Source: Lachnospiraceae bacterium (lineage in GTDB: Bacteria > Bacillota > Clostridia > Lachnospirales > Lachnospiraceae). From it: a DNA stretch of 39,964 nt. Location of the stretch: assembly GCA_014804355.1 (NCBI GenBank), contig JAAUZY010000099.1, forward strand, positions 1 to 39,964, in the 5' to 3' direction. Below are positions 12,256 to 39,964 of the stretch, in pieces. The position numbers and the translations under genes are program-made. How positions within the stretch are numbered: position 1 is the stretch's first letter; each line of letters starts with the position of its first letter. The notes beneath the pieces were generated by a model that made no database searches, was not told the origin of the DNA, and saw only the letters and a list, made by a program, of their open reading frames with translations.

Positions 12256-15200
12256 ATGAGAAAAAGAATTTTGAGTATTATGCTGGCAGTGGTTGTAACA
12301 TTTACAGCAATGGGCAGTAATGTGTCAGCAGCAGAATTAGGCGAAGCCATGGATGAGTCGATTCAGACGCAGACAGAGGAGATGGAAACAGTAGAGGCTG
12401 AATCAGAAACGGAAAAGCAGGAAGAGGAATCTGCTGCGGAGGATACGGAGGCAGGAACTGCGGAGGATATGAATACAGGATCTGAATCAGAAGGAGAGGA
12501 AGCCGACTCAGATAACGAAGATTCCAAAGAAAATGAAACAGATGATGAGACTGAAGGAGAAAGTCAGGAAAACGGAGATGACTCCGCAGTGACGGAAGAT
12601 GTAGGGGATGAATCGGAAACCGCAGAAGAGAAAGAAGATGTAGATTCTTCCGTGGAAGATGAAACAGAAATTGATGCTGGCGTGGCGAAAAAGGTGCTGG
12701 CGACTTCCGATACTGATATTGCAAGCGGGCAGTACACGGAGAATGGTTCGAATATTGTCTGGGTTATTGATGCAAATGGTAAATTGACGGTGGAAGGAAC
12801 CGGAGATTTTGCCGTGTCATCCAGAAACTTGGATAACCCCAGAACGCCTTGGTATTCAAATGCCGCGTCTATTAAGTCCGCAGAAATAAATGTAACAGGT
12901 ATGACTGATGCCAGCTTTATGTTCTATAATTGCGTAAATTTGACAAGTCTGGATTTAAGCAATTTTGACACCAGTGAAGTGACAGATATGAGTTATATGT
13001 TTTATGATGGCAGGATTTATGGTGAGGCTGATGATTATGGTTTCTATTATGAAGATGAAGATTCCTATTACTGGGATGGTGAACACCTGACCAGTTTGGA
13101 TGTGAGTGGCTTTGATACCAGTAAAGTGACAGATATGAGTTATATGTTTTATGGGTTAAGATCCCTTGACAGTTTGGATGTGAGTGGCTTTGATACCGGT
13201 AATGTGACAAATATGAGTCATATGTTTTACGGGTTAAGATCTCTTATCAGTTTGGATGTAAGTAATTTTAGTACCGCTAAAGTGACAGATATGAGCTATA
13301 TGTTCTATGCTTGCGGTTTCGATCGCCGACATGGGGAAAGAAGAACCAGTTTGGATGTGAGCGGCTTTGATACCGGTCACGTGACTGATATGAGTAATAT
13401 GTTTAGAGAATGCCGATGTCTTGCCAGTCTGGATGTAAGCGGCTTTAATACTGGTAACGTGACAGATATGAGCGGCATGTTTTATTGCTGTGGAAAGTTG
13501 GATAGCATAGATGTAAGCGGCTTTGATACCGGTAAAGTGACTAATATGAGTAATATGTTTTGCGGCGTTTACCCGGACAGTTTGGATGTAAGCGGCTTTG
13601 ATACCGGCAATGTGACAGATATGAGCGGGATGTTTGCCTCCTGCGGTCTGATTAGCGTGGATGTAAGCAGCTTTGATACGGGTAACGTGACAGATATGAG
13701 TGAGATGTTTGACGGTTGCAATAACCTGACCAGAGTTGACCTAGGTAGTTTTGATACCAGTAAAGTGACTAATATGAGCGGTATGTTTTACTGCTGCCGA
13801 AACCTGACCAAAGTTGACCTAAGCGGTTTAAATACCAGTAACGTGACAGACATGAGCAAGATGTTTTATGACTGCGAAAGTCTGACCGACATTGATCTGA
13901 GTAATTTTGATACCGCCAACGTGACAGATATGAGCGAAATGTTTTTCCAATGCCGGAAGTGGACCAGAGTGGATCTGAGCGGTTTAAATACCAGTAGTGT
14001 TACTGATATGCGTGGTATGTTTTATAGCTGCAATAGTCTGACCAGAATTGACGTAAGCGGTTTTGATACCAGTAATGTTACTGATATGAGTAATATGTTT
14101 GGATACTGCACTAATTTGCTCCAAATAGACTTAAGCAAATTAAATACCAGCAAAGTGATAAGTATGCGGTCTATGTTTTCTGGCTGCACTATGACCAGAA
14201 TTGATGTAAGCGGTTTAAATACCAGTAATGTTACTAATATGAGTAATATGTTTGCAAGCTGTAAAAATTTAATCAGCGTTGATTTGAACGGTTTAGATAC
14301 CAGTAATGTAACAGAAATGAGTTCTATGTTTTGGGGTTGTACCAGTCTGACCAGTGTGGATTTAAGCGGTTTTGACTGTAGTTCATTCAGCTGGAGAACA
14401 TCTTTGGATGATGTGTTTAACAATTGCAGCGCATTGACTACTGTTTATACGCCATATAGGGATAATAGTGATGGAAATACATACGTCCTACAGCTGCCAA
14501 AGAGTAGTGACTCGGATGTCTGGTATGGCTATGATGAAAATGGAGAAATAATTAATAATATTAGTGGTTTTCAGCTAAGAGATTACAGTATTGTACTAAT
14601 GAAAAACCAAGTACCCACTGCAAATACAATAACAGCCACAAAAGCAAATACATTCTATGAGGTTGGGAATACATTGAATATAGATGACCTGACAGTCTAT
14701 TATTATGATGAGAAGGGCGCTGTTAAGAAAGTTACAGAGGGTTATTCAACAAATGCAAATGAAGTAGATATGTCCTCTGTGGGGAATAAGACACTGAAAA
14801 TAACATATAACGGTATGACCGCAGAAGTGGAAATTATCGTGGGAGTAGCTTATACGGTAACATTTACCGGAACGGGAAAAGATGACGTATCTTTCGAAAC
14901 ACTGAAGGTAATGGAAGGTGCAGACTATAAGTTCTGGCTGGCAGTAAACGAGGACTACGTCTACACAGTCACAGCAACGATGGGAGAAAAAAACGTAAGA
15001 CCAAAGTTTGATTCGTCTGCTAATTCCTATACGATATCGAATGTAAGTGGAAATCTTGTGATTACAGTTAAGAAGACGTTTGAAGACAAATCCGGACTTA
15101 AGATATCGTTTAAAAATGAGGATGATAGGAAAACCGCCTACATCGGCACGGCAATACAGCCACAAATTGAGGTGACATACAACGGTAAAAAACTTATTTT

Positions 15201-16707
15201 GGGCACTGACTATAGCGTAAAGTACTCAAACAACATTAAAATTGGAATCGCTAAGATTACAGTAACAGGTAAAGGAAACTTCGTAAAAGGAAACAGCAGC
15301 ACCACCTTTGAAATTGTGCCAAGGAATATTGCAGACGTAACCCTTTGTGGCGTGGCAACAGACATTGACAAGAAAGAAACACTGACACTTGCAAGCGGTG
15401 CGACGTTGACTCCTGTACTGTTTTACAACAATATCAAACTTACCAATAAGGACTATGTAATAAGAGGTGCAAGTGATGCGGAAATAACAGGCAAAAAGCT
15501 CAATGACAGCTATAATAATACCATAATTAAAATCGAAGCCAGGTCTGGTGGAAACTTTACTGGAAGCAGGGAAGTTACACTGAATGTAGTGGATAAAAAG
15601 AATCTGACAAAATTTACCGTGATTGTTGATAAAACTAAGTTCAAAACACTGACTTATGATGGCAACCCACATTACATACATGAAATAAGTGGCGCTATAA
15701 CCGTAACAGCCAAAAACGTAGCCAAGACAAATATGGAATACGGAAAGGATTATACTATAGTATATCCAAGCGATGTAACCAATGCCGGAACTAAAAAGTT
15801 TACCGTTGTGGGCTGTGGAATTTATACCGGAAGCGTCAGTAAGTCCTACACAATCAAACCGGCAAAGGAGGCAGCACTGTCTGTTTATTATGATGACAAT
15901 ATTGTAACAGGAAATAGGATAACCACTCCATTTACTTTTGCAAGCTCCGGAATCACTTTTAGCAGTAAACTGACTGTCACTGACGGTAACGGTAACGCGC
16001 TGAACGAGGGTAAAGATTACAAGGTTTCCTACAGTGGAAATAAGCAAGTCAGCACAAAGGCAAAATGCACCATTACATTTCTTGGCAACTACAAAGGACA
16101 CGCAAAGCAGACTGTAGGATTTGAAATCGCCAAGGCTGACTTAAGTGACGCAGAAGTGATAATTGCGGATAAAGCATACACGGGAAAGGCAGGAATTTAC
16201 AAATCAGTCCCCTATGTAATTGAAGATAAAGACAACGCTAATGTCTTATTGAAGTCCTCTAACTATAAAATCACCTATTACACCGAGGATCCGACGAATA
16301 ATGACAGCGCTGTGCAGATGAAAGGAAAGAACAAGGTTGGAGCCGGATGCACCGTATGGGTGAAGCTTGAAGCAAAGGGCAAAAATTATTCAGGCACTCA
16401 GATTGTAAGCTATAAAGTGCGTGAAGCACAAGACCTTTCCAAGGCAAAAATAACTTTTAAGGATACCGACGGCAATACCGTTAAAAAGATGCCATATACT
16501 GGCAACAAGATAACAGATAAGCATATTAAAGCAGTGGTAAACGGCGAATTTGCCGAAGATGATGCCGATATAGAAGTAATATATGTAAACAATATAAAAA
16601 AAGGCAAAGCAACCGTAATCATAAAGGGTACAGACACCGACATTTGCAAGTATGCGGGTTGCAAGACAGCAACATTCAGCATTGTAGCGCGCAGCTTTAG
16701 CTTGTAA
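12256..16707 (+). CDS. Giant BspA-type leucine-rich repeat surface protein
   Basis: A 1483-residue secreted protein. Residues 1-27 are a Sec signal ending in 'SNVSAAE'. Residues ~28-145 are a very acidic Glu/Asp/Thr/Ser region. From ~215 to ~720 come 17 clear copies of the Lactobacillus/Listeria/Mycoplasma-type BspA repeat ('LDVSGFDTSNVTDMSNMF' pattern) plus degenerate end copies. The C-terminal ~700 residues are Ig-like and MBG-like beta units ('YNGKKLILGTDYSVKYSNN' and similar, about six). There is no LPxTG motif or membrane anchor, so surface attachment is unexplained. BspA-type proteins mediate adhesion to host or other bacteria. Start follows GAGGAAGGA. Regulated probably by the divergent Xre protein. 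Confidence 0.92.
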   Translation: MRKRILSIMLAVVVTFTAMGSNVSAAELGEAMDESIQTQTEEMETVEAESETEKQEEESAAEDTEAGTAEDMNTGSESEGEEADSDNEDSKENETDDETEGESQENGDDSAVTEDVGDESETAEEKEDVDSSVEDETEIDAGVAKKVLATSDTDIASGQYTENGSNIVWVIDANGKLTVEGTGDFAVSSRNLDNPRTPWYSNAASIKSAEINVTGMTDASFMFYNCVNLTSLDLSNFDTSEVTDMSYMFYDGRIYGEADDYGFYYEDEDSYYWDGEHLTSLDVSGFDTSKVTDMSYMFYGLRSLDSLDVSGFDTGNVTNMSHMFYGLRSLISLDVSNFSTAKVTDMSYMFYACGFDRRHGERRTSLDVSGFDTGHVTDMSNMFRECRCLASLDVSGFNTGNVTDMSGMFYCCGKLDSIDVSGFDTGKVTNMSNMFCGVYPDSLDVSGFDTGNVTDMSGMFASCGLISVDVSSFDTGNVTDMSEMFDGCNNLTRVDLGSFDTSKVTNMSGMFYCCRNLTKVDLSGLNTSNVTDMSKMFYDCESLTDIDLSNFDTANVTDMSEMFFQCRKWTRVDLSGLNTSSVTDMRGMFYSCNSLTRIDVSGFDTSNVTDMSNMFGYCTNLLQIDLSKLNTSKVISMRSMFSGCTMTRIDVSGLNTSNVTNMSNMFASCKNLISVDLNGLDTSNVTEMSSMFWGCTSLTSVDLSGFDCSSFSWRTSLDDVFNNCSALTTVYTPYRDNSDGNTYVLQLPKSSDSDVWYGYDENGEIINNISGFQLRDYSIVLMKNQVPTANTITATKANTFYEVGNTLNIDDLTVYYYDEKGAVKKVTEGYSTNANEVDMSSVGNKTLKITYNGMTAEVEIIVGVAYTVTFTGTGKDDVSFETLKVMEGADYKFWLAVNEDYVYTVTATMGEKNVRPKFDSSANSYTISNVSGNLVITVKKTFEDKSGLKISFKNEDDRKTAYIGTAIQPQIEVTYNGKKLILGTDYSVKYSNNIKIGIAKITVTGKGNFVKGNSSTTFEIVPRNIADVTLCGVATDIDKKETLTLASGATLTPVLFYNNIKLTNKDYVIRGASDAEITGKKLNDSYNNTIIKIEARSGGNFTGSREVTLNVVDKKNLTKFTVIVDKTKFKTLTYDGNPHYIHEISGAITVTAKNVAKTNMEYGKDYTIVYPSDVTNAGTKKFTVVGCGIYTGSVSKSYTIKPAKEAALSVYYDDNIVTGNRITTPFTFASSGITFSSKLTVTDGNGNALNEGKDYKVSYSGNKQVSTKAKCTITFLGNYKGHAKQTVGFEIAKADLSDAEVIIADKAYTGKAGIYKSVPYVIEDKDNANVLLKSSNYKITYYTEDPTNNDSAVQMKGKNKVGAGCTVWVKLEAKGKNYSGTQIVSYKVREAQDLSKAKITFKDTDGNTVKKMPYTGNKITDKHIKAVVNGEFAEDDADIEVIYVNNIKKGKATVIIKGTDTDICKYAGCKTATFSIVARSFSL
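12940..14400 (+). repeat. Tandem BspA-type repeats (about 17 copies)
   Basis: Each unit is about 24-25 residues with the core L-x-x-[LVI]-D-[VL]-S-[GN]-[FL]-[DN]-T-[SG]-x-V-T-[DN]-M-x-x-M-F. The DNA of neighbouring units is similar (the phrase GTGACAGATATGAG recurs), which allows copy number change by recombination. A longer Tyr/Asp-rich insertion breaks the array after the first unit. Confidence 0.92.
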
Positions 16708-16953: not shown

Positions 16954-18450
16954 ATGAAAAGAAAATTTATTAAGTTGTTTATTAGTTTAATGTGTATTAT
17001 TGGGCTGTCAGCCTGTTCAAAATACAAAGAAGCAGATGATTCAGAAGAAAGCCATTCGTTAGAAGAATCTGTAATTGTAAAGTATGAGGAAACCAGTGAA
17101 ATCCTGACAGGGAATGAGGAAGAGTGGAATGTGATTACCACGTCCTTGCTTGAAATAGTAGAGAACAATACATTATCGTTAAAAACGCTGGAACAAGTTT
17201 TTGGGGATTTGTTGAAAGAAGTGGATTGGGTGGCAACCGAAGTTGTAGAAACGGCAAAACAAGCAGTGAATGAAGATAAACAGGATATAATGCAACAGGC
17301 AGGGAATACATATGAAAACGATGGGAAGTACAGTTCGTTTCTGAAAAAAGCATGGATCGTGGACGGACCGAAGAGGGAGTCTGGAAGTTTTGAATTTATT
17401 ATTACCGAAATAAATGATAAAAAAATAAAAGGATATATTGCGGTTAATGACAACATAGACTGGCTCTATCGGAGCGACAGTGAGCTTGCGCGCAGACTAT
17501 GCAAACCTTTTAAAGGCACTATTGCAGGAAATCAGGCAGAATGTGTGTTTCAATATGAGGAATGTCAGGTAGAAGCTACATTTTTATTTCAGGAAAATGG
17601 TAGAATGGAGGCGGAGATTAGATGTGATAAACTGGATATCAATGAGAGGTATCCATTCCGCCCGTCCAATTTGTCAGATTATCAACTGCATGATGATATA
17701 ACATCCACGCCGGTCTTTTTTGATACATGGGGAGAAGTAAATCTGGTCTCTGCTACAACTGATAATAATCATTCTGTCCCATGTTTTTATTTCACGAACA
17801 ATGACGGAGATATTTTATATGAGGATTATTGTATGGAGGGATTGGTTTTCTGGGATATTTTTGTGGAAGATATTGATCAGGACGGGCGGCTGGATATATG
17901 GACGGTAATATGTGCCGATCATTCCCCGGAGGGCGTAAGAATGGTAGACATATTCTATCAGGCAGAGAATGGATATTTTTACAAGGAGTGGGAGCAGACA
18001 GGCGAATTGCCGAAAGAATACTACGGAGAGTATCGGGTCACGCAGTTTTGCCCGACGGAGGATTATGCCGGAATAAGTGAAACAGTACTGACACAGCAGG
18101 AAGCGGAGCAGATGCTGGAGAAGGATATCGTGATCCAGGACCGCCTTTTTGTAACTTATGATTCGGAGAGGCGTATAGGGACGAGAGGGGACCGTGAATT
18201 ACCCACAAGGGACAGCGTGATAACAGAGTACCGTTATTCAGGTCCGGTTTCATCGGAGCTTCTTATTCGTGAAGCGCATCCTGATGAGAGGCTGCGGGAA
18301 GCAGTCGGTGAAGAGTATTATGAGAAAATTAACGGTGTATTTAGCTATATGTCTGTAGGCTGGCAGCAGTTTTATACATTGGAAGGTGAAGAGAAGCTGA
18401 TTATGCATTCCATGCTGACAGGGCAGAATTTTATATTGGAAAGAAAGTAA
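16954..18450 (+). CDS. Secreted lipoprotein of unknown function with an Asp-rich calcium-like loop
   Basis: A 498-residue lipoprotein: signal 'KLFISLMCIIGLSAC' with lipobox L-S-A-C (Cys 21), then an acidic linker. The middle part (~90-240) is predicted mixed alpha/beta with no family I recognise. Around residue 308 'FVEDIDQDGRLDIWTVICAD' is an EF-hand/FG-GAP-like loop, found also in the next gene. The last ~130 residues are duplicated in shortened form at 19985-20214. AAGGTAAGAGG precedes the ATG. It is the first of several unrelated-looking lipoproteins in this zone. The function is unknown; binding of an extracellular ligand is the most general guess. Confidence 0.8.
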   Translation: MKRKFIKLFISLMCIIGLSACSKYKEADDSEESHSLEESVIVKYEETSEILTGNEEEWNVITTSLLEIVENNTLSLKTLEQVFGDLLKEVDWVATEVVETAKQAVNEDKQDIMQQAGNTYENDGKYSSFLKKAWIVDGPKRESGSFEFIITEINDKKIKGYIAVNDNIDWLYRSDSELARRLCKPFKGTIAGNQAECVFQYEECQVEATFLFQENGRMEAEIRCDKLDINERYPFRPSNLSDYQLHDDITSTPVFFDTWGEVNLVSATTDNNHSVPCFYFTNNDGDILYEDYCMEGLVFWDIFVEDIDQDGRLDIWTVICADHSPEGVRMVDIFYQAENGYFYKEWEQTGELPKEYYGEYRVTQFCPTEDYAGISETVLTQQEAEQMLEKDIVIQDRLFVTYDSERRIGTRGDRELPTRDSVITEYRYSGPVSSELLIREAHPDERLREAVGEEYYEKINGVFSYMSVGWQQFYTLEGEEKLIMHSMLTGQNFILERK

Positions 18451-18479
18451 TATGAGTCTTAGGAAAACTGTTTTTTTAC

Positions 18480-19931: not shown

Positions 19932-20216
19932 TTGTATGAGAGAGTAAAGGATGATGTAAATCTATTACAAGAGAGAGTAGATTGTGCCGGAATAAGTGAA
20001 ACGGTACTGACGCAGCAGGAAGCGGGTCAGATGCTGGAGAAGGATATCGTGATTCAGGACCGCCTTTCAGAGTACCGTTATACAGCCCCGGTTTCGCCGG
20101 AGCTTCTTATTCGTGAAGCACATCCTGATGAGAGGCTGCGGAAAGGAGTCGGTGAAGAGAAGTTGATTATGCATTCCCTGCTGACAGGGCAGAATTTTAT
20201 ATTGGAAAGAATGTGA
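19932..20216 (+). pseudogene. Truncated duplicate of the 498-residue lipoprotein's C-terminus
   Basis: From 19985 the sequence copies 18066-18448, with two in-frame losses of 75 and 78 bases. The reading frame stays open for 94 codons from 19932, and the first 17 residues ('MYERVKDDVNLLQERVD') are unrelated. It has no signal peptide and lacks a clear ribosome binding site. The second deletion lies exactly between two GGTGAAGAG repeats in the parent (18307-18315 and 18385-18393). A decayed copy is more likely than a working gene. Confidence 0.82.
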
Positions 20217-20239
20217 TATGATTAAGCAGGATAAACGAA

Positions 20240-33264: not shown

Positions 33265-33293
33265 TTGTGAACCCAACGGAAATAAGGTATAAT
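33265..33293 (+). promoter_or_regulatory. Promoter in front of the structured element and pfkA
   Basis: TTGTGA (33265-33270) and TATAAT (33288-33293) are 17 bases apart. GTGAAC (33267-33272) and GTTCAC (33294-33299) form an inverted repeat around the promoter and may be a regulator site. Confidence 0.78.
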
Positions 33294-33295
33294 GT

Positions 33296-33432
33296 TCACG
33301 TAGGCAATGAGCGCTGCCACGATGTAAGATGACAAATCGGCTGCTCGCAGACGAATTTGTCAGATTCCATCGTGATAGGGCGAAGCCCGTGAGCGAGATG
33401 AAGCGAAGCGGAATCGAGCGTGCAGCGCGGAG
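33296..33432 (+). ncRNA. Structured intergenic RNA candidate, copy 1 (upstream of pfkA)
   Basis: Predicted helices: P1 GCGCTGC (33311-33317) with GCAGCGC (33422-33428); P2 CACGATG (33318-33324) with CATCGTG (33368-33374); P2b GACAAAT with ATTTGTC; P2c CTGC (33341) with GCAG (33347); P3 GGGCGAAGCCC (33378-33388). The copy at 39756 has different bases but the same pairing in P1, P2 and P2c. The linker GAGCGAGATG-AGCGAAGCGG is conserved and unpaired or weakly paired. It starts three bases after a -10 box. Function unknown. Confidence 0.75.
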
Positions 33433-33600
33433 TAACCCAAGCCCAAAACCCAAGCAAAAGCGAGAGCGAGCGCAGCAAGATCGAGCCAGCAGCGCAAAGC
33501 AAAATCGAGCGGCAGCGCGGAGTAACCCAAGCCCAAAACCCAAGCCAAAGCGAGAGCCGAGCGCAGCAAGATCGAGCCGGCAGCGCAAAGCGGAATCAAA
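33422..33600 (+). repeat. Two 90-bp tandem repeats before pfkA
   Basis: The units begin with GCAGCGCGGAGTAACCC at 33422 and 33512. They are nearly identical (a few substitutions or 1-bp changes, for example CAAGCAAAAG against CAAGCCAAAG). The unit contains the 3' arm of P1, so it looks like a duplication of the tail of the structured element. Open frames here encode low-complexity Arg/Ser/Pro/Gln text and are not credible genes. Confidence 0.85.
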
Positions 33601-33620
33601 GCAGTTAAGGAGGAATCACA

Positions 33621-34694
33621 ATGAAAAGAATAGGTATGTTGACCAGCGGTGGAGATTGTCAGGCATTAAATGCGGCTATGCGCGGCGTAGTCAAATGTTT
33701 ATCATGCAGCGGAGAAGACGTTGAGATTTACGGATTTTTGGATGGATACAAAGGACTGATCTACGGAGATTTCCGTATGTTGACAGGTCATGACTTCGCA
33801 GGAATCCTGACGAAGGGCGGCACGATTCTCGGCAGCTCCAGGACTCCTTTTAAACTGATGCGGGAACCGGATGAGAACGGCCTTGATAAAGTAGAGGCAA
33901 TGAAACAGAACTATTATAAATTAAAGCTGGACTGCATGGTGATTTTGGGCGGCAACGGCACACATAAGACTGCTAACATGCTCCGTGAGGAAGGCCTTAA
34001 TGTGATTACCCTTCCGAAGACAATCGACAACGATCTGTGGGGCACGGATATGACCTTCGGTTTCCAGAGTGCGGTGGATATCGCGACAGACTGTATCGAC
34101 TGCATCCATACTACGGCATCTTCCCACGGACGTATCTTCATCGTGGAGGTTATGGGTCACAAGGTTGGCTGGCTTACTCTGAATGCCGGAATGGCAGGCG
34201 GCGCAGACATCATTCTGATCCCTGAGATTCCTTATGATATTGATAAAGTGATCAAAGCCATCAATGAGCGTGAAGCGAGAGGGTCCAGATTTACGATCAT
34301 GGCAGTGGCGGAGGGCGCGATCTCTAAAGAAGACGCGAAGCTTTCCAAGAAAGAATATAAAGAAAAGATGAAGAATTATCCGTATCCTTCCGTTTCTTAT
34401 GAAATTGCAGATAAGATTCAGAAGAAGAGCGGTAAGGAAGTGCGCGTTACCGTACCGGGACATACCCAGCGTGGCGGAAGTCCCTGTCCGTATGACCGTG
34501 TGTTTGCTACCAGACTGGGCGCAGAGGCAGGCAGACTGATTCTGCAGGGTGAGTATGGATTTATGGTAGGTTATAAGAACAGAGAGATCGTCAGAGTGCC
34601 TCTTGAAGAAGTAGCAGGCAAGCTGAAGATGGTATCACCGGATGCGACCATCGTACAGGAAGCGAAGATGGTAGGTATCAGCTTCGGTGATTAA
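33621..34694 (+). CDS. pfkA: 6-phosphofructokinase
   Basis: 357 residues. It catalyses phosphorylation of fructose 6-phosphate to the 1,6-bisphosphate, the committed step of glycolysis. Motifs: 'GMLTSGGDCQALNAAMRGVV' (start of the nucleotide site), 'GGNGT' (110-114), 'LPKTIDNDLWGTD' (131-143) with the catalytic Asp, 'EVMGHKVGWL' and 'VPGHTQRGGSPCPYD'. Gly at the second position after GG and Lys in PKTIDND fit the ATP-using group with Lys124, not the PPi group. Asn replaces the usual Asp of GGDG(S/T), which is unusual. AAGGAGGAATCAC precedes the ATG. Longer than E. coli PfkA (320). Confidence 0.93.
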   Translation: MKRIGMLTSGGDCQALNAAMRGVVKCLSCSGEDVEIYGFLDGYKGLIYGDFRMLTGHDFAGILTKGGTILGSSRTPFKLMREPDENGLDKVEAMKQNYYKLKLDCMVILGGNGTHKTANMLREEGLNVITLPKTIDNDLWGTDMTFGFQSAVDIATDCIDCIHTTASSHGRIFIVEVMGHKVGWLTLNAGMAGGADIILIPEIPYDIDKVIKAINEREARGSRFTIMAVAEGAISKEDAKLSKKEYKEKMKNYPYPSVSYEIADKIQKKSGKEVRVTVPGHTQRGGSPCPYDRVFATRLGAEAGRLILQGEYGFMVGYKNREIVRVPLEEVAGKLKMVSPDATIVQEAKMVGISFGD

Positions 34695-34705
34695 TAGGAG
34701 AAGTA

Positions 34706-36301
34706 ATGTCTTATACAGCTCTTTATCGTAAGTTCCGCCCGGATTGTTTCGAGGATGTAAAAGGGCAGGAGCATATCGTTACAACATTAAAGAACCAAAT
34801 AAAGGCGGAGCGGATCGGTCATGCATACCTGTTCTGCGGTACACGCGGAACAGGTAAAACTACGATCGCAAAGATCTTTGCGAAAGCAGTCAATTGCGAG
34901 CATCCTGTGGATGGCAGTCCATGCGGGGAGTGTCAGGCGTGTAAGACGATTGCGTCAGGAGCGAGCATGAACGTGATCGAGATCGATGCGGCTTCCAACA
35001 ACGGTGTGGATAATATCCGTGAGATCGTGGAGGAAGTATCCTATTCGCCGGCAGAGGGCAAGTATAAAGTTTATATCATAGATGAGGTTCACATGCTTTC
35101 TATAGGGGCATTCAATGCGCTTCTTAAGACGTTGGAAGAACCGCCTTCCTATGTGATCTTCATTCTTGCGACCACAGAGGTGCACAAGATACCTATTACC
35201 ATTCTGTCCCGATGTCAGCGATATGATTTCAGACGTATCACGATCGACACGATCACCGGCAGGCTGCGGGAATTGATGGATACAGAACAGATTCAGGTCG
35301 AAGAGAAAGCGCTTCGCTATGTGGCGAAGACGGCGGACGGTTCCATGCGGGATGCTTTAAGCCTGTTAGACCAGTGCATTGCTTTTCACTTCGGCCAGGA
35401 ACTGGCTTATGATAAAGTGTTGGATGTGCTGGGGGCTGTGGACACGGAAGTGTTCGGCAGACTGCTTAGGCATGTGCTGGAACGGAATGTGACAGGCTGC
35501 ATTGAACTTTTGGAAGAGATCGTTATGCAGGGCAGAGAACTTACCCAGTTTGTGACAGATTTCACATGGTATCTGCGTAATCTTCTTCTGGTAAAATCTT
35601 CCGATGACATAGAGGACGTGATCGACGTTTCTACGGATAATCTTGTCAGACTGCGGGAAGAAGCGGGTATGACAGAGACGGATGCGATCATGCGCTATAT
35701 CCGTATTTTTTCCGAACTGTCGGGGCAGATCAAGTATGCGGCGCAGAAGCGCATACTGATAGAGATCGCCCTGATCAAGCTGTGCCGTCCGGATATGGAG
35801 AAAGACTACGAATCCATAGTAGAGCGGGTCAGAGCAGTGGAAGAGAAGATCGAGAACGGGATCGCGGTCGTACCTGCGGGCGGAGGATATCCTGCCGACG
35901 GCGGTATGTACGGCAGCGGGAACCAGATGGCAGCGGGTACGCCGGTGGAGAGACCTCCGCTTCCGAAAGCGATTCCGGAGGATGTGCAGGCAGTGGTCGA
36001 TAAGTGGGCAACGATCGTAGGGCAGACCTCCATGCCCATGAAACAGTATCTGAAAGATGCGGGTCTTAGCCTTGGCGGAGACAATAAACTGATGATTGTG
36101 GTAGAAGACGGGCTTGCGTCGGACTACTTTTTAAAGCAGGAGGGGCATAAGGAGCAGCTTGTGCAGACGCTATCCGAGGCTGTGGGCAGAGAGATCGAGG
36201 TTACGATACAGAGTGTACCGAATCGAAATGCTTTTGTGCAGAATTATGTGGATTTAAGTCAGGTGATCCATATGGATATAGAAGTAGAAGAAGAGGATTA
36301 G
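34706..36301 (+). CDS. dnaX: DNA polymerase III subunit gamma/tau
   Basis: 531 residues. The clamp-loader ATPase opens with '[19 protein letters not shown]', Walker A 'GTRGTGKTT' (45-53), a zinc site C64/C73/C76/C79, Walker B '[11 protein letters not shown]', and sensor '[10 protein letters not shown]'. Domain III runs to ~370, followed by a Gly/Pro-rich linker and a C-terminal domain ('[20 protein letters not shown]') that resembles the tau end of Firmicutes. It loads the beta clamp at the fork. TAGGAG lies before the ATG, 12 bases after pfkA. First gene of the conserved dnaX-ybaB-recR block. Confidence 0.96.
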
Positions 36302-36332
36302 AAAAAGAACAGATAAGGAGCGGGAAGACATT

Positions 36333-36677
36333 ATGGCAAAACGTGGAGGATTTCCGGGCGGTATGCCGGGGAACATGAACAATCTGATGAAGCAGGCGCA
36401 GCGGATGCAGCGGCAGATGGAAGAAAGCCAGAAGGAGCTGGAGACGAAAGAATTTGTCGCTAAGGCAGGAGGCGGTGCGGTGGAAGTGACCGTGACAGGC
36501 GGAAAAGAGATCACGAAGGTGAAGCTGTCCGAGGAAGTGGTAGATCCCGATGATATCGAGATGTTAGAAGATCTCGTGATGGCGGCGGCTAACGAGGCGC
36601 TGCGTATGGCTGATGAGGCGAATAACGAGCTGATGAGCAAGATGACCGGCGGTCTTGGCGGAGGATTTCCGTTCTGA
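36333..36677 (+). CDS. ybaB: YbaB/EbfC-family nucleoid-associated protein
   Basis: 114 residues. Family hallmarks: '[20 protein letters not shown]' coiled coil, '[20 protein letters not shown]', and '[20 protein letters not shown]' near the C-terminus. It forms a tweezer-shaped dimer that binds DNA without strong sequence choice and almost always sits between dnaX and recR. AAGGAGCGGG precedes the ATG. Its TGA stop overlaps the recR ATG (TGATG), so the two are translationally coupled. Confidence 0.95.
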
Positions 36678-37273
36678 TGGAACTGTACAGCGGTCATATC
36701 AATAAATTAATAGAAGAGTTGGCAGGGCTTCCGGGCATTGGTTCTAAATCCGCTCAGAGGCTTGCTTTTCATCTGATCAATATGCCGCAGGCAAAAGTGG
36801 AAAGACTGGCGCATGCGATCATTGACGCCAAAGAAAACGTGCGGTATTGCCGGGAATGCTATACGCTGACGGATCAGGATATATGTCCGGTCTGTGCCAA
36901 CGTCAACAGGGATCACGGCACCCTCATGGTGGTGGAGAATGCCAGAGATTTGGCGGCATATGAGAAGACAGGTAAATACGGCGGTGTCTATCACGTGCTC
37001 CACGGGGCGATTTCCCCCATGCTGGGGATCGGGCCGAATGATATCAGGCTTAAGGAACTTATGCACCGTCTGGAAGGTGATGTGAGCGAGGTGATTATCG
37101 CTACGAATTCCAGTCTGGAAGGCGAAACGACAGCCATGTATATCAGTAAGCTGATCAAGCCTACGGGGATCAAAGTGACAAGGATTGCCAGCGGCGTGCC
37201 GGTGGGCGGCGATCTGGAATATATAGATGAGGTTACGCTGTTGCGTGCATTGGAAGGCAGAGTGGAACTGTAG
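36677..37273 (+). CDS. recR: Recombination mediator RecR
   Basis: 198 residues, the normal length. Helix-hairpin-helix '[20 protein letters not shown]', zinc finger C58-C61-C70-C73 ('[16 protein letters not shown]'), Toprim region '[20 protein letters not shown]' and '[15 protein letters not shown]', and the C-terminal '[20 protein letters not shown]'-like Walker-type segment (shown in part). With RecO it loads RecA onto SSB-covered gapped DNA. The start overlaps the ybaB stop. Confidence 0.97.
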
Positions 37274-37293
37274 GAAGCGGAGGGAAAATAAAG

Positions 37294-38334
37294 ATGCAGA
37301 TAGTAAAAGAGAAGTTCGGAACAACTAAATGCGGTAAGGATGTGTATGCGTATACTTTATCCAATGCCGGCGGTATGCAGGCGAAAATCATTAATTTCGG
37401 AGCAAATCTTATAAGTCTGCTTGTGCCGGATCAAAACGGCAATCTGGAAGATGTAGTTTTGGGATTTGATAAGCTGGAAGACTATTACGGAAACGGCAGT
37501 TTCTTCGGGGCGACGGTCGGACCGAGCGCTAACCGGATTGCGGGTGCATGCTTTGAGATAGACGGTCAGCGCTATCAGATCGATGCGAATGACGGCGAGA
37601 ATAATCTGCACAGCCATATAGAAGAGGGGTACCATAAACGTGTCTGGGATGTAACGGAGACTGAGAACGGATTGGTTCTTTCTCTGGAAGGCAAAGACGG
37701 GGAAATGGGTTTTCCGGGCAATAAGAAGGTCACCGTGACTTTCAGCTTATCCGATGACAATGCGCTGAAATTGAGTTATCACGTGACAGCAGATGCCAAT
37801 ACGATTGTGAATATGACCAATCACACATATTTCAATTTAGCGGGACATAAAGCAGGCAGGATCGAGGATCATCTGTTGAAAATAAATGCTTCCCATTACA
37901 CGCCGGTAGTTCCGGGAGCAATTCCTACGGGAAAGATCGCGCCGGTAGAAGGAACACCCATGGACTTTACGAAGATGAAACCGATCGGGCAGGATATCAA
38001 TGCCGATTGTGAGCAGTTGAAGATCGGGCAGGGATATGACCACAATTTTGTGATCGACGGTGCCGACGGCACGCTTCGGGAGATTGCGGAGGCTGAAGAT
38101 CCCAAGAGCGGCAGGAAGATGAAAGTATTTACCGATCTGCCCGGAGTACAGTTTTATGCGGGCAACTGTATCGGAGAGGAGACCGGTAAAGAGAATACCG
38201 CGTACGGGCCGCGCAAAGGATTCTGTCTGGAGACGCAGTTCTATCCGGATAACATCCATCATCCGAATTTCCCGCAGTCAGTGTTCGGACCGGGAAAAGA
38301 TTATGATTCTGTGACAATTTATCAGTTTGTATAA
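37294..38334 (+). CDS. galM: Aldose 1-epimerase
   Basis: 346 residues, the usual length. Motifs: 'FGATVGPSANRIAGACFEID', 'NNLHSH', catalytic His in 'NMTNHTYFNLAGH', substrate 'YDHNFVID', and the catalytic Glu in 'KGFCLETQFYPDNIHHPNFP'. It interconverts alpha and beta forms of galactose and glucose. GGAGGGAAAATAAAG precedes the ATG, 20 bases after recR, so it may be cotranscribed. A strong terminator follows. Confidence 0.95.
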   Translation: MQIVKEKFGTTKCGKDVYAYTLSNAGGMQAKIINFGANLISLLVPDQNGNLEDVVLGFDKLEDYYGNGSFFGATVGPSANRIAGACFEIDGQRYQIDANDGENNLHSHIEEGYHKRVWDVTETENGLVLSLEGKDGEMGFPGNKKVTVTFSLSDDNALKLSYHVTADANTIVNMTNHTYFNLAGHKAGRIEDHLLKINASHYTPVVPGAIPTGKIAPVEGTPMDFTKMKPIGQDINADCEQLKIGQGYDHNFVIDGADGTLREIAEAEDPKSGRKMKVFTDLPGVQFYAGNCIGEETGKENTAYGPRKGFCLETQFYPDNIHHPNFPQSVFGPGKDYDSVTIYQFV

Positions 38335-38369
38335 AGGTCTGTTGTTTTATTGCAGATGTTGCAAATAAA

Positions 38370-38431
38370 AGATACGGAAATTGTGGTGCAGGGCGAAGCG
38401 TTACTGCACGATGATTTCCGTATCTCTTTTT
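38370..38431 (+). terminator. Intrinsic terminator after galM
   Basis: AGATACGGAAAT (from 38370) pairs with ATTTCCGTATCT, an inner GTGCAG/CTGCAC helix extends it, and CTTTTT follows. Confidence 0.9.
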
Positions 38432-38609
38432 ATTGTTAACGACATTAGAAATTTTGCGTTCGGTCTTGCAAATTTTTTGTTTATGCAGACACATCAATTA
38501 TCGCGTATTTTGCCATATTTTTCACATAAGACATGCTATAGTAATTTTATAGTGTGATACAGTGCGCGAAGACGATCCGAATATCGATCTTCGGAATGGA
38601 GTGAATGCA

Positions 38610-39743
38610 ATGAGACAGTCATCAATCATCATTCACAAAGGAGGAAAAGAAGAAAAGTACGAGATCTACGTGGAAGATTACGTGCTGTCTTTTTTAAAAG
38701 AGGAAACGGGAACATTGGAGCTTTCGGAATTCTTTTTCTACGGATTCAAAGAAAAGTTTGGCAAAAAATATACGATATTTGGCGTGGGAAGGGATAGACA
38801 TCTGGAAGTATTTGATAAATACAGTCTGTTGGAAGAGATCGGCTGTCGTCTGACGCAGGCGGGCCCCGTGTTTCTGGTCAGAGAAGGAACGGAAAACTAT
38901 GAGGTGAAGGGATACGAGGTTTTCTATCAGGATAATGCACCGATGCAGACATATCTGATAGAACGGAAAAACGGAAACGGCGGGAAAGACAGGGACAGCG
39001 ATCCTGTCGAAGCAGATAGAGGCAGTGGGACAGACCAAAGGAAATGGCAGAGTGCGCAGCCGCAAGCCATGCAGGGGCAGACGTCCCGCAGGCAGATATC
39101 ACCCAGTACGATTTCCGCCCAGCTTAGTATTATTCTTATGATATTGGTCGCCATTGTGGTCAATTCTACAAACAGCTATGATGAGATGCAGCAGTTGAAT
39201 CAGTCGGCTACAGAAGTTTTTTTTGCCATGGAGAATCAGGAGGCGGAAAAAACGGGCGAGGAAGGAGAGAGCCGGGAAGAGGTCGTAGTGCAGCGGGAAC
39301 CTTCGCAGGAAGAGGATATTCTGAAACTGGCAGCACTTGAAAATAAAGAACAGGCAGGCGAACCGGAGGAGGCAGCGGGAGAAGAGAATTCTGAAGAAAC
39401 AGAGGATGAATCTCTGAACGAGAATGACAAAAATACATCAGATCTTTCCGAGACTCCTAAAGATACTGCAGACAATGCCAATGCGGAAGCCGGTCGGAAC
39501 AATGACGAAGAAGAAACAGGAGAGTCTGAAACCACTGAGGAAAACTCCGATCAGACCGAAGAAGAGGTGGAGGCACTTTCCCGCAATGTGGCAAGATACT
39601 ATAAAGTGGAGCCCGGTGATACCCTATATATGATCAGCCAGAAAATCTATGGAGATACCTCCCATGTACAGAGAATCTGCGAGCTGAACCAGATCACCGA
39701 CCCGGATCATATCCGAGACGGACAAAAAATAATACTTCCCTAA
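38610..39743 (+). CDS. Membrane-anchored LysM-domain protein
   Basis: 377 residues. The ATG at 38610 follows GGAGTG by seven bases; an in-frame GTG nine bases upstream is possible. Residues 1-120 form a cytoplasmic domain with 'IHKGGKEEKYEIYVEDYVLS'. One membrane helix ('AQLSIILMILVAIVV') lies near 190. After it a long acidic Glu/Asp/Thr stretch and a C-terminal LysM domain: 'YYKVEPGDTLYMISQKIYGD', 'LNQITDPDHIRDGQKIILP'. LysM binds peptidoglycan, so it probably links the cell wall to the membrane. The cytosolic domain and LysM tail layout occurs in Lachnospiraceae; its role is unknown. Confidence 0.85.
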   Translation: MRQSSIIIHKGGKEEKYEIYVEDYVLSFLKEETGTLELSEFFFYGFKEKFGKKYTIFGVGRDRHLEVFDKYSLLEEIGCRLTQAGPVFLVREGTENYEVKGYEVFYQDNAPMQTYLIERKNGNGGKDRDSDPVEADRGSGTDQRKWQSAQPQAMQGQTSRRQISPSTISAQLSIILMILVAIVVNSTNSYDEMQQLNQSATEVFFAMENQEAEKTGEEGESREEVVVQREPSQEEDILKLAALENKEQAGEPEEAAGEENSEETEDESLNENDKNTSDLSETPKDTADNANAEAGRNNDEEETGESETTEENSDQTEEEVEALSRNVARYYKVEPGDTLYMISQKIYGDTSHVQRICELNQITDPDHIRDGQKIILP

Positions 39744-39755
39744 CCAGATTCATGT

Positions 39756-39905
39756 TATAATGTACGCGACACCAATGAGCAGTGCCACTCCGTAAACAGA
39801 CAAACCGGCAGCTTGCTGACGGATTTGTCTGCTTATGGAGTGATAGGGCGAAGCCCGCGAGCGAGATGGAGCGAAGCGGAATCGAGCGTGCACTGCGGAG
39901 TAAAA
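39756..39905 (+). ncRNA. Structured intergenic RNA candidate, copy 2
   Basis: TATAAT at 39756-39761 is followed by GCAGTGC (39779-39785), pairing with GCACTGC (39890-39896) as P1. CACTCC (39786-39791) pairs with GGAGTG (39837-39842) as P2, GACAAA with TTTGTC, CAGC (39809) with GCTG (39815), and P3 GGGCGAAGCCC is at 39846-39856. The conserved linker GAGCGAGATGGAGCGAAGCG follows. It aligns over its length with 33296-33432. No good -35 box is seen here. Confidence 0.75.
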
Positions 39906-39917
39906 AAAGAGCAATAT

Positions 39918-39964
39918 GACAAACCGGCAGCTTGCTGACGGATTTGTCTGCTTATGGAGTGATA
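39918..39964 (+). repeat. Partial third copy of the structured element at the window edge
   Basis: 47 bases, starting GACAAACCGGCAGC and ending in GGAGTGATA, are identical to 39799-39845. The 5' arms of P1 and P2 are not present before it, so it looks like a tail fused to copy 2 or the start of a tandem array that leaves the window. Confidence 0.85.

Follow-up and report, generated by a model that had tools for sequence, protein, structure and literature searches.

What kind of sequence recurs with one fold and one orientation, each time directly behind a TATAAT box, within a single Lachnospiraceae contig? In the window, by which we mean the whole 39,964-nt stretch analysed here (contig JAAUZY010000099.1, assembly GCA_014804355.1), we found two 140-nt copies of one element family, both on the plus strand: copy 1 at 33295–33434 and copy 2 at 39763–39902. 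We think it probable that the family is a miniature inverted-repeat transposable element (MITE)-like element that is mobilised in trans and nests in sigma-A promoters, where it turns into the 5′ leader of the gene behind it.

The two copies form a direct repeat with 78% ungapped identity over 159 nt, and TATAAT boxes (33288–33293 and 39756–39761) lie directly 5′ of them, as in an earlier reading of the DNA (the original prediction), which had proposed two same-strand copies of one fold right after TATAAT. The 127-nt cores fold much more stably than 200 dinucleotide shuffles, with z scores of –3.66 (copy 1) and –5.66 (copy 2). The boundaries of copy 1 are set by analogy with four 140-nt copies that lie between exact duplications. 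The window's genome (G000) has four full copies, namely these two and those at C66:23227–23356 and C3:6968–7096, together with a copy that lacks the P2 hairpin described below (C5:4426–4496) and weaker relatives.

A dispersed family in Lachnospiraceae

A covariance model built from the four full G000 copies (R1) matched at E ≤ 0.01 in 80 of 145 genomes (the window's own and relatives) and in 13 of 62 genera, with up to 22 matches per genome; among the matches listed, 68 of the 77 genomes of the window's genus are represented, the window's included. A sequence pattern found at least 120 stretches in named GTDB genomes (L051–L170), and the 80 titles listed for them are mostly Lachnospiraceae or unspecified Clostridia (Hungatella, Parablautia, Anaerostipes, Enterocloster and many metagenome-assembled genomes). 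Eighty of these stretches (L051–L130) were put through the model, whose search of the G loci covered L201–L280 and 20 of the 29 loci L022–L050. With a broader model (R2, E ≤ 1e-4), 28 of the 391 genomes searched across the class gave a match; they fall into 20 of 222 genera and include several families beyond the window's own. The element is common in Lachnospiraceae and present in some other Clostridia, in the many copies that would count as support for the original prediction. It is short (140 nt), non-coding, multi-copy and dispersed, as a MITE should be.

In a search of the window against Rfam 15, only a signal recognition particle (SRP) RNA and a tRNA reached the gathering score. With the element windows and E values up to 10, copy 2 drew only microRNA models far below gathering and copy 1 drew nothing, and at 13 further loci no family reached the gathering score. 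A known Rfam family, the identification that would have told against the original prediction, was therefore ruled out. Carriage by phages or plasmids was also rejected, with no exact pattern match in IMG/VR and no blastn match of copy 2 in plasmids or phages. In the open-access papers covered by our searches, we found no description of this family or of MITEs targeted to the –10 box. Thousands of structured RNAs have been catalogued from human microbiomes (PMC8040213), and, as far as the portions of that catalogue drawn on here go, the present family could be among its unnamed candidates.

The fold is kept as its sequence turns over

The fold consists of a 7-bp stem, P1, that closes a junction of three hairpins: P2, which is long and variable in sequence and length; H2 (GGGC-GAA-GCCC), which is near-constant; and H3. 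In copy 1, the P1 strand GCGCTGC (33311–33317) pairs with GCAGCGC (33422–33428), and P2 (33318–33374) is supported by folds, alignment and covariation, H2 (GGGCGAAGCCC, 33378–33388) by folds and alignments, and H3 (33393–33419) by folds and covariation. In copy 2, GCAGTGC (39779–39785) pairs with GCACTGC (39890–39896), and P2, H2 and H3 lie at 39786–39842, 39846–39856 and 39861–39887. H3 in the window has the form GC-GA-GAT...ATC-GA-GC, a hairpin broken by tandem G-A mismatches, which is found in the minimum-energy folds of both copies in slightly different registers.

The original prediction had taken two parts as near-constant, a hairpin and a linker that would be the working surface. The hairpin is H2, which is indeed near-constant in an alignment of 107 rows (A4); in the named-genome set, H2 belonged to the search pattern, so its constancy there proves nothing. 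The linker is H3. Its position is occupied in other species by unrelated stems in which pairing is kept, and we rejected a conserved linker, as well as its role as working surface, because the stretch is a covarying hairpin that turns over.

All three stems in which both strands had been said to change with pairing kept are seen. In the alignment of the four full G000 copies (A2), 97.6% of cells are paired and both sides have changed in 10 of 42 pairs, compared to 4.6 in shuffles. In two larger alignments, both fitted to R1 and so biased to its fold, 93.7% of cells are paired in A3 (87 rows; 64.5% shuffled, 32–44% slid) and 91.9% in A4 (72.4% shuffled, 31–41% slid). A3 and A4 overlap (181 hits reduce to 170 distinct copies), and counts summed over them include a few copies twice.

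Because model-fitted alignments would be circular, we also aligned 48 of the 80 named loci with MAFFT, blind to structure (A5); these were chosen by hand, with the window's close relatives and some others omitted. De novo RNAalifold on A5 recovered 4 bp of P1, 11 bp at the base of P2, and the hairpins H2 and H3; 18 of the 24 pairs had changed on both sides. We then used a phylogeny-aware null, in which substitutions on a FastTree tree with Fitch ancestral states were dealt out anew along the branches; it is R-scape-like but is not R-scape. The significant pairs fell inside the predicted structure in 14 of 14 cases for A5, 26 of 27 for A3 and 16 of 19 for A4; of the three A4 pairs outside, two adjoin a pair of the structure and one lies elsewhere. 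Covariation across homologues, which the original prediction had called for, is thus significant, and the fold is preserved although most paired positions outside H2 turn over.

A three-base block, GAA/TCC, differs among relatives at two separate loci, as seen when C66 and window 39763–39902 are set beside their counterparts in genomes G056 and G027; both G000 copies have one state and both G056 copies the other. The pattern points to exchange among dispersed copies, by gene conversion or by mutation templated on a hairpin. Some of the covariation may therefore be of mutational origin, since the block swaps three bases at once to complementary ones.

Mismatches favour folding of the transcribed strand

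If the fold were paired only within double-stranded DNA, or if mutation were strand-symmetric, G-T mismatches should equal A-C and A-G should equal C-T. On the sense strand of A3 and A4 together, we counted 206 G-U (75 + 131) versus 66 A-C (29 + 37), and 345 A-G/G-A (122 + 223) versus 16 C-T/T-C (9 + 7); these counts come from related sequences, some of them present in both alignments, and are not independent events. Counted by pair position in A3 and A4, the bias goes to G-U over A-C at 23 versus 7 and 25 versus 6, and to A-G over C-T at 23 versus 3 and 22 versus 3. The asymmetry therefore favours a fold formed by the transcribed strand, as RNA or as single-stranded DNA of that strand.

The same asymmetry argues against a palindromic MITE acting purely as DNA, in which pairing would arise from template-switch correction of quasi-palindromes, or from single-stranded DNA hairpins in transposition, and not from selection on RNA. 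Neither strand-symmetric mutation nor cruciforms would be expected to give an excess of G-U and A-G on the sense strand, although single-stranded DNA of the sense strand still fits. Such an origin would suit the very long, near-perfect P2 palindromes of some species, the three-base block that restores pairs, and three distant copies (L408, L409, L411) whose inverted ends are, by eye, longer than P1; but recurrent tandem G-A motifs escape the supposed correction, and H3 covaries as well as P2 does. We consider this explanation unlikely, though it is the strongest of the rivals.

Copies are placed like leaders of diverse genes

For orientation we used those copies (151 of 170) that have 400 nt or more of sequence on each side; open reading frames (ORFs) were called mechanically, and downstream genes were named by eye from translations, except for the window's own genes. 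The downstream gene is on the element's strand in 130 of the 145 copies with a called neighbour. Among copies clear of any ORF of at least 80 aa, this holds for 86 of 92, with a median distance of about 50 nt, and a downstream ORF with a plausible ribosome-binding site is present in 138 of 170 copies. The position and orientation are thus typical of 5′ leaders, and on this point the original prediction stands.

Its expectation of consistent downstream genes is not borne out, because these genes are very diverse. Many of the products are, by eye, housekeeping ones (PfkA, IspG, UppS, PyrH, GreA, AtpD, AckA, LeuA, MurG, GlgC and response regulators), and among the 138 of 170 copies with a downstream ORF we saw no consistent pathway of the riboswitch type. 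This bears on a second rival, in which the element is a host-serving cis-regulatory leader (riboswitch- or attenuator-like, or an mRNA stabiliser) that is retained because it regulates the downstream gene. The sense orientation and 5′-untranslated position are what such a leader would have, the fold is kept at a site common to species (pfkA, in the window and in G032), and, judged by eye, some copies have a P2 that looks like an intrinsic terminator. However, by eye no pathway is common to the downstream genes, both gene and promoter at pfkA are the same in relatives that lack the element, truncated and decayed copies exist, and a genome can have up to 22 matches. Dispersal over unrelated genes together with decay at some sites argues against a host sensor, and we regard this rival as distinctly improbable. 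Most likely, the fold would serve the element rather than sense a signal for the host.

The gene behind copy 1 is pfkA (6-phosphofructokinase; 33621–34694, plus strand; Pfam PF00365, E 9.8e-105). At 33422–33600 on the plus strand, self-comparison of the window revealed an expansion of the 3′ module, with a 46-nt repeat (98%, 90 nt apart) and extra strands like those of H3 and of the 3′ side of P1. An extra exact P1 3′ strand occurs downstream in 47 of the 160 copies that have 200 nt there, compared to 2 for a shuffled 7-mer. Behind copy 2, a part of its P2 is repeated at 39918–39964 (plus strand, 47 nt identical, ending with the contig). Relatives L204 and L100 hold a diverged partial P2 at this position, and an artefact at the end of the assembly, or conversion, may account for the perfect identity.

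The TATAAT box as insertion target

At a fixed place upstream, TATAAT with at most one mismatch is present in 106 of 169 copies, compared to 2.3% at control positions (one of the 170 distinct copies was too short to judge). An extended TG accompanies it in 79 of 105 copies and a –35 box with at most two mismatches in 47 of 105, compared to 12.7%. At copy 1, the –35 box TTGTGA (33265–33270) stands 17 nt from TATAAT, and the 9-mer GGTATAATG with the –10 box (33286–33294) is the left copy of the target; the corresponding 9-mer at copy 2 is GTTATAATG (39754–39762), all on the plus strand. We found pfkA in 71 of 76 same-genus genomes and read 29 upstream regions. In L199 and L189 the same promoter, TTGTGA-17-TATAAT, is present without the element, and L178, L180, L181 and L194 have apparent remnants of it upstream of pfkA. 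Because element-free relatives keep this promoter, sequence comparison indicates that the pfkA promoter is ancestral and that TATAAT is the insertion target.

Joined flanks of six candidate sites were used to look for empty sites, and spanning hits were obtained for three. The filled site in G006 (L302) has two copies of ATGATATAATG flanking the element, whereas the empty site in G035 (L320) is a promoter, TTGACA-15-TATAAT, with a single copy. Opposite the filled site in G021 (L041), the empty site in G007 (L318) has just one copy, GATAGAATT, which has diverged. For the L298 site, the relatives retain mainly right-end remnants and give no clean empty site.

We also scanned 345 sequences (1.62 Mb) for pairs of identical 9-mers of the form NNTATAATN. 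Of the 64 pairs found, we took eight to be real, half of them belonging to this element and half to other short types, and we regard the rest as chance or tandem effects. In the four element copies (L040, L041, L052 and L270), exactly 140 nt lie between perfect 9-bp duplications of the –10 box, and the right end, ...AT, joined to the G in the repeated 9-mer, restores TGATATAAT. Together with the empty sites, these copies show the target-site duplication of a MITE, and they agree with the spread by a mobile process proposed in the original prediction.

That TATAAT is cargo, part of a mobile promoter with its leader, is very improbable: it would explain the fixed –10 spacing in most copies, but we rejected it since element-free relatives keep the pfkA promoter and the empty L320 has its TATAAT and one ATGATATAATG, and some copies lie after T-runs without TATAAT.

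A proposed route and what weighs against it

In the trans-mobilised, promoter-nesting reading, machinery supplied in trans would insert the element into the –10 box of a sigma-A promoter and duplicate about 9 bp (NNTATAATN). The left –10 box would keep the native –35 box and start transcription at the element's left end, so that the element would become the 5′ leader of the downstream gene. The right end (..AT) and the right-hand duplicate would rebuild an extended –10 box (ATGATATAAT) before the gene, which may therefore retain its own promoter. In the transcribed strand, P1 would close P2, H2 and H3, and this fold would most likely serve the element: it might be recognised in trans, or it might let essential transcripts tolerate the leader by making it innocuous.

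Several observations weigh against this route. The window's own copies have no surviving right-hand duplicate, though they have the same 140-nt span. TATAAT within one mismatch is absent from the fixed place in 63 of 169 copies, of which 27 have two mismatches, 7 follow T-runs and 29 do neither; about five of the 29 have a –10 box shifted by two or three bases, and five lie at the apparent stop of an upstream gene, near acetate-kinase-like genes. Eight copies from the class-wide search were read, four from the window's family and four from other families, and a clear TATAAT is present in L410 alone; thus –10 targeting is established by sequence in the Lachnospiraceae copies but not family-wide. 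The right-hand TATAAT of L121, L218, L223 and L298 has neighbours unlike those of the left box and so is not always a clean duplicate. A general test for duplications by shared words, run over all copies, proved weak (words of at least 9 in 5 of 166, with the tandem L075 omitted, versus about 1.5 in mismatched pairs), which is why the exact-duplication and empty-site tests were adopted. The ends are asymmetric, with an inner repeat of only 7 bp (P1) that is set in from them. The GAA/TCC block restores pairing in one step, which fits hairpin-templated mutation as well as it fits selection.

A mobilising enzyme with these ends was also not found: PF00872 occurs in 3 of 10 genomes and PF01609 in 7 of 10, and no transposase with these flanks was seen in a search that covered these two families. 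Of the 36 transposase loci kept for a flank scan, five gave loose hits, only L356 had both end features and none had a TATAAT duplication. No –10 duplication was seen at IS256-type or DDE_Tnp_1 loci. In the search for an autonomous partner, 34 left ends turned up in 8 of 9 genomes, and the 30 that we read (175 nt each) belong to full copies, deletion derivatives and nested inserts.

Other small elements with the same boundaries

The boundary rule, with left NNCGC, right AT and a 9-bp duplication of the –10 box, is followed by at least two other small structured families, judged by eye to be unrelated. A 118–120-nt family (NNCGCAAAAGAAAAACAAGCG... TTTGCGAGTTTAGAT) with its own multi-hairpin fold occurs at L288, L344, L340 and L081 (G006, G022, G069 and a named contig), and the window's genome has a partial match to it at C43:72312–72446. 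A family of about 83–85 nt, consisting of two hairpins with a TATAAT box on either side, occurs at L218, G020:C166, G076:C4, G014:C7 and elsewhere, and is sometimes tandem, each unit ending in a –10 box. L122 has a single 70-nt insert with the same boundaries. At L289, L299 and L307 another GC-rich repeat (GTGCTAAGCGCCAGTGGCGCTTGT...) is nested at the H2 hairpin.

Two TATAAT boxes that enclose a short NNCRC...AT insert gave 54 matches in 30 of 77 genus genomes, compared to 12 for a reversed control, and about 44 of the 54 belong to one family with two hairpins, sometimes in tandem. A pattern for longer inserts gave 25 matches in 22 of 77 genomes, compared to 8 for the control; 7 of them are recognisably this element. 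We tentatively suggest, with the chances somewhat against it, that small structured elements of gut Clostridia, unrelated to one another, form a guild made up of this element, the 118–120-nt type, the abundant type of about 85 nt and possibly the 70-nt type. One shared machinery would recognise either the –10 box or a promoter that RNA polymerase has opened, and would integrate them all with a 9-bp duplication; promoters would be stacked as 'TATAAT + folded leader' units, with the folded RNA or sense-strand DNA as substrate.

Other features of the window

Elsewhere in the window, 12256–16707 encodes a protein of 1483 aa whose DNA contains numerous 78-bp repeats (DUF285, BspA-type leucine-rich repeats). 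Fragments at 18061–18455 and 19980–20221 are 91–94% identical and keep the same order, which suggests a partial gene duplication. The SRP RNA, a Bacterial large SRP RNA (RF01854, 179 bits), lies at 1543–1803 on the minus strand.

Comparison with known systems

The models R1 and R2 make this a searchable family of structured 5′ leaders in Lachnospiraceae, dominant gut bacteria. If the proposed route is true, an element that lands in the core promoter of important genes, and by duplicating the box leaves them able to keep one, would solve the problem of target choice in an unusual way. The family also makes a general question testable, namely when covariation reflects a selected RNA and when it reflects mobility or hairpin mutagenesis.

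Going by those parts of the cited papers used here, the systems nearest in kind seem to be BOX, RUP and SPRITE of Streptococcus pneumoniae, small non-coding repeats with a strong predicted RNA fold that are thought to be mobilised in trans (PMC3049150). Like our element, they are dispersed, fold strongly with their ends paired in the fold, and are co-transcribed as 5′ or 3′ extensions, and the modular internal repeats of BOX are a further likeness. Unlike them, as they are described there with no –10 targeting, our element is asymmetric, is 140 nt long and has a 9-bp duplication of the –10 box; it also differs in fold, in sequence and in its spread across several families of a class. Correia elements of Neisseria and other promoter-bearing MITEs are likewise MITEs near genes that affect transcription, but they carry the promoter, whereas here the promoter is the target and is duplicated (PMC10969869). 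TnGBS, ISLre2 and ISKra4, with prokaryotic Mutator-like transposases, share oriented insertion at sigma-A promoters; they insert 15–17 bp upstream of the –35 box and encode a transposase, whereas our element hits the –10 box itself and is too short to encode an enzyme (PMC3942029). Taken together, these comparisons place the element as a new variant among transcribed MITE-like elements, with a shared –10-box machinery as the novel possibility.

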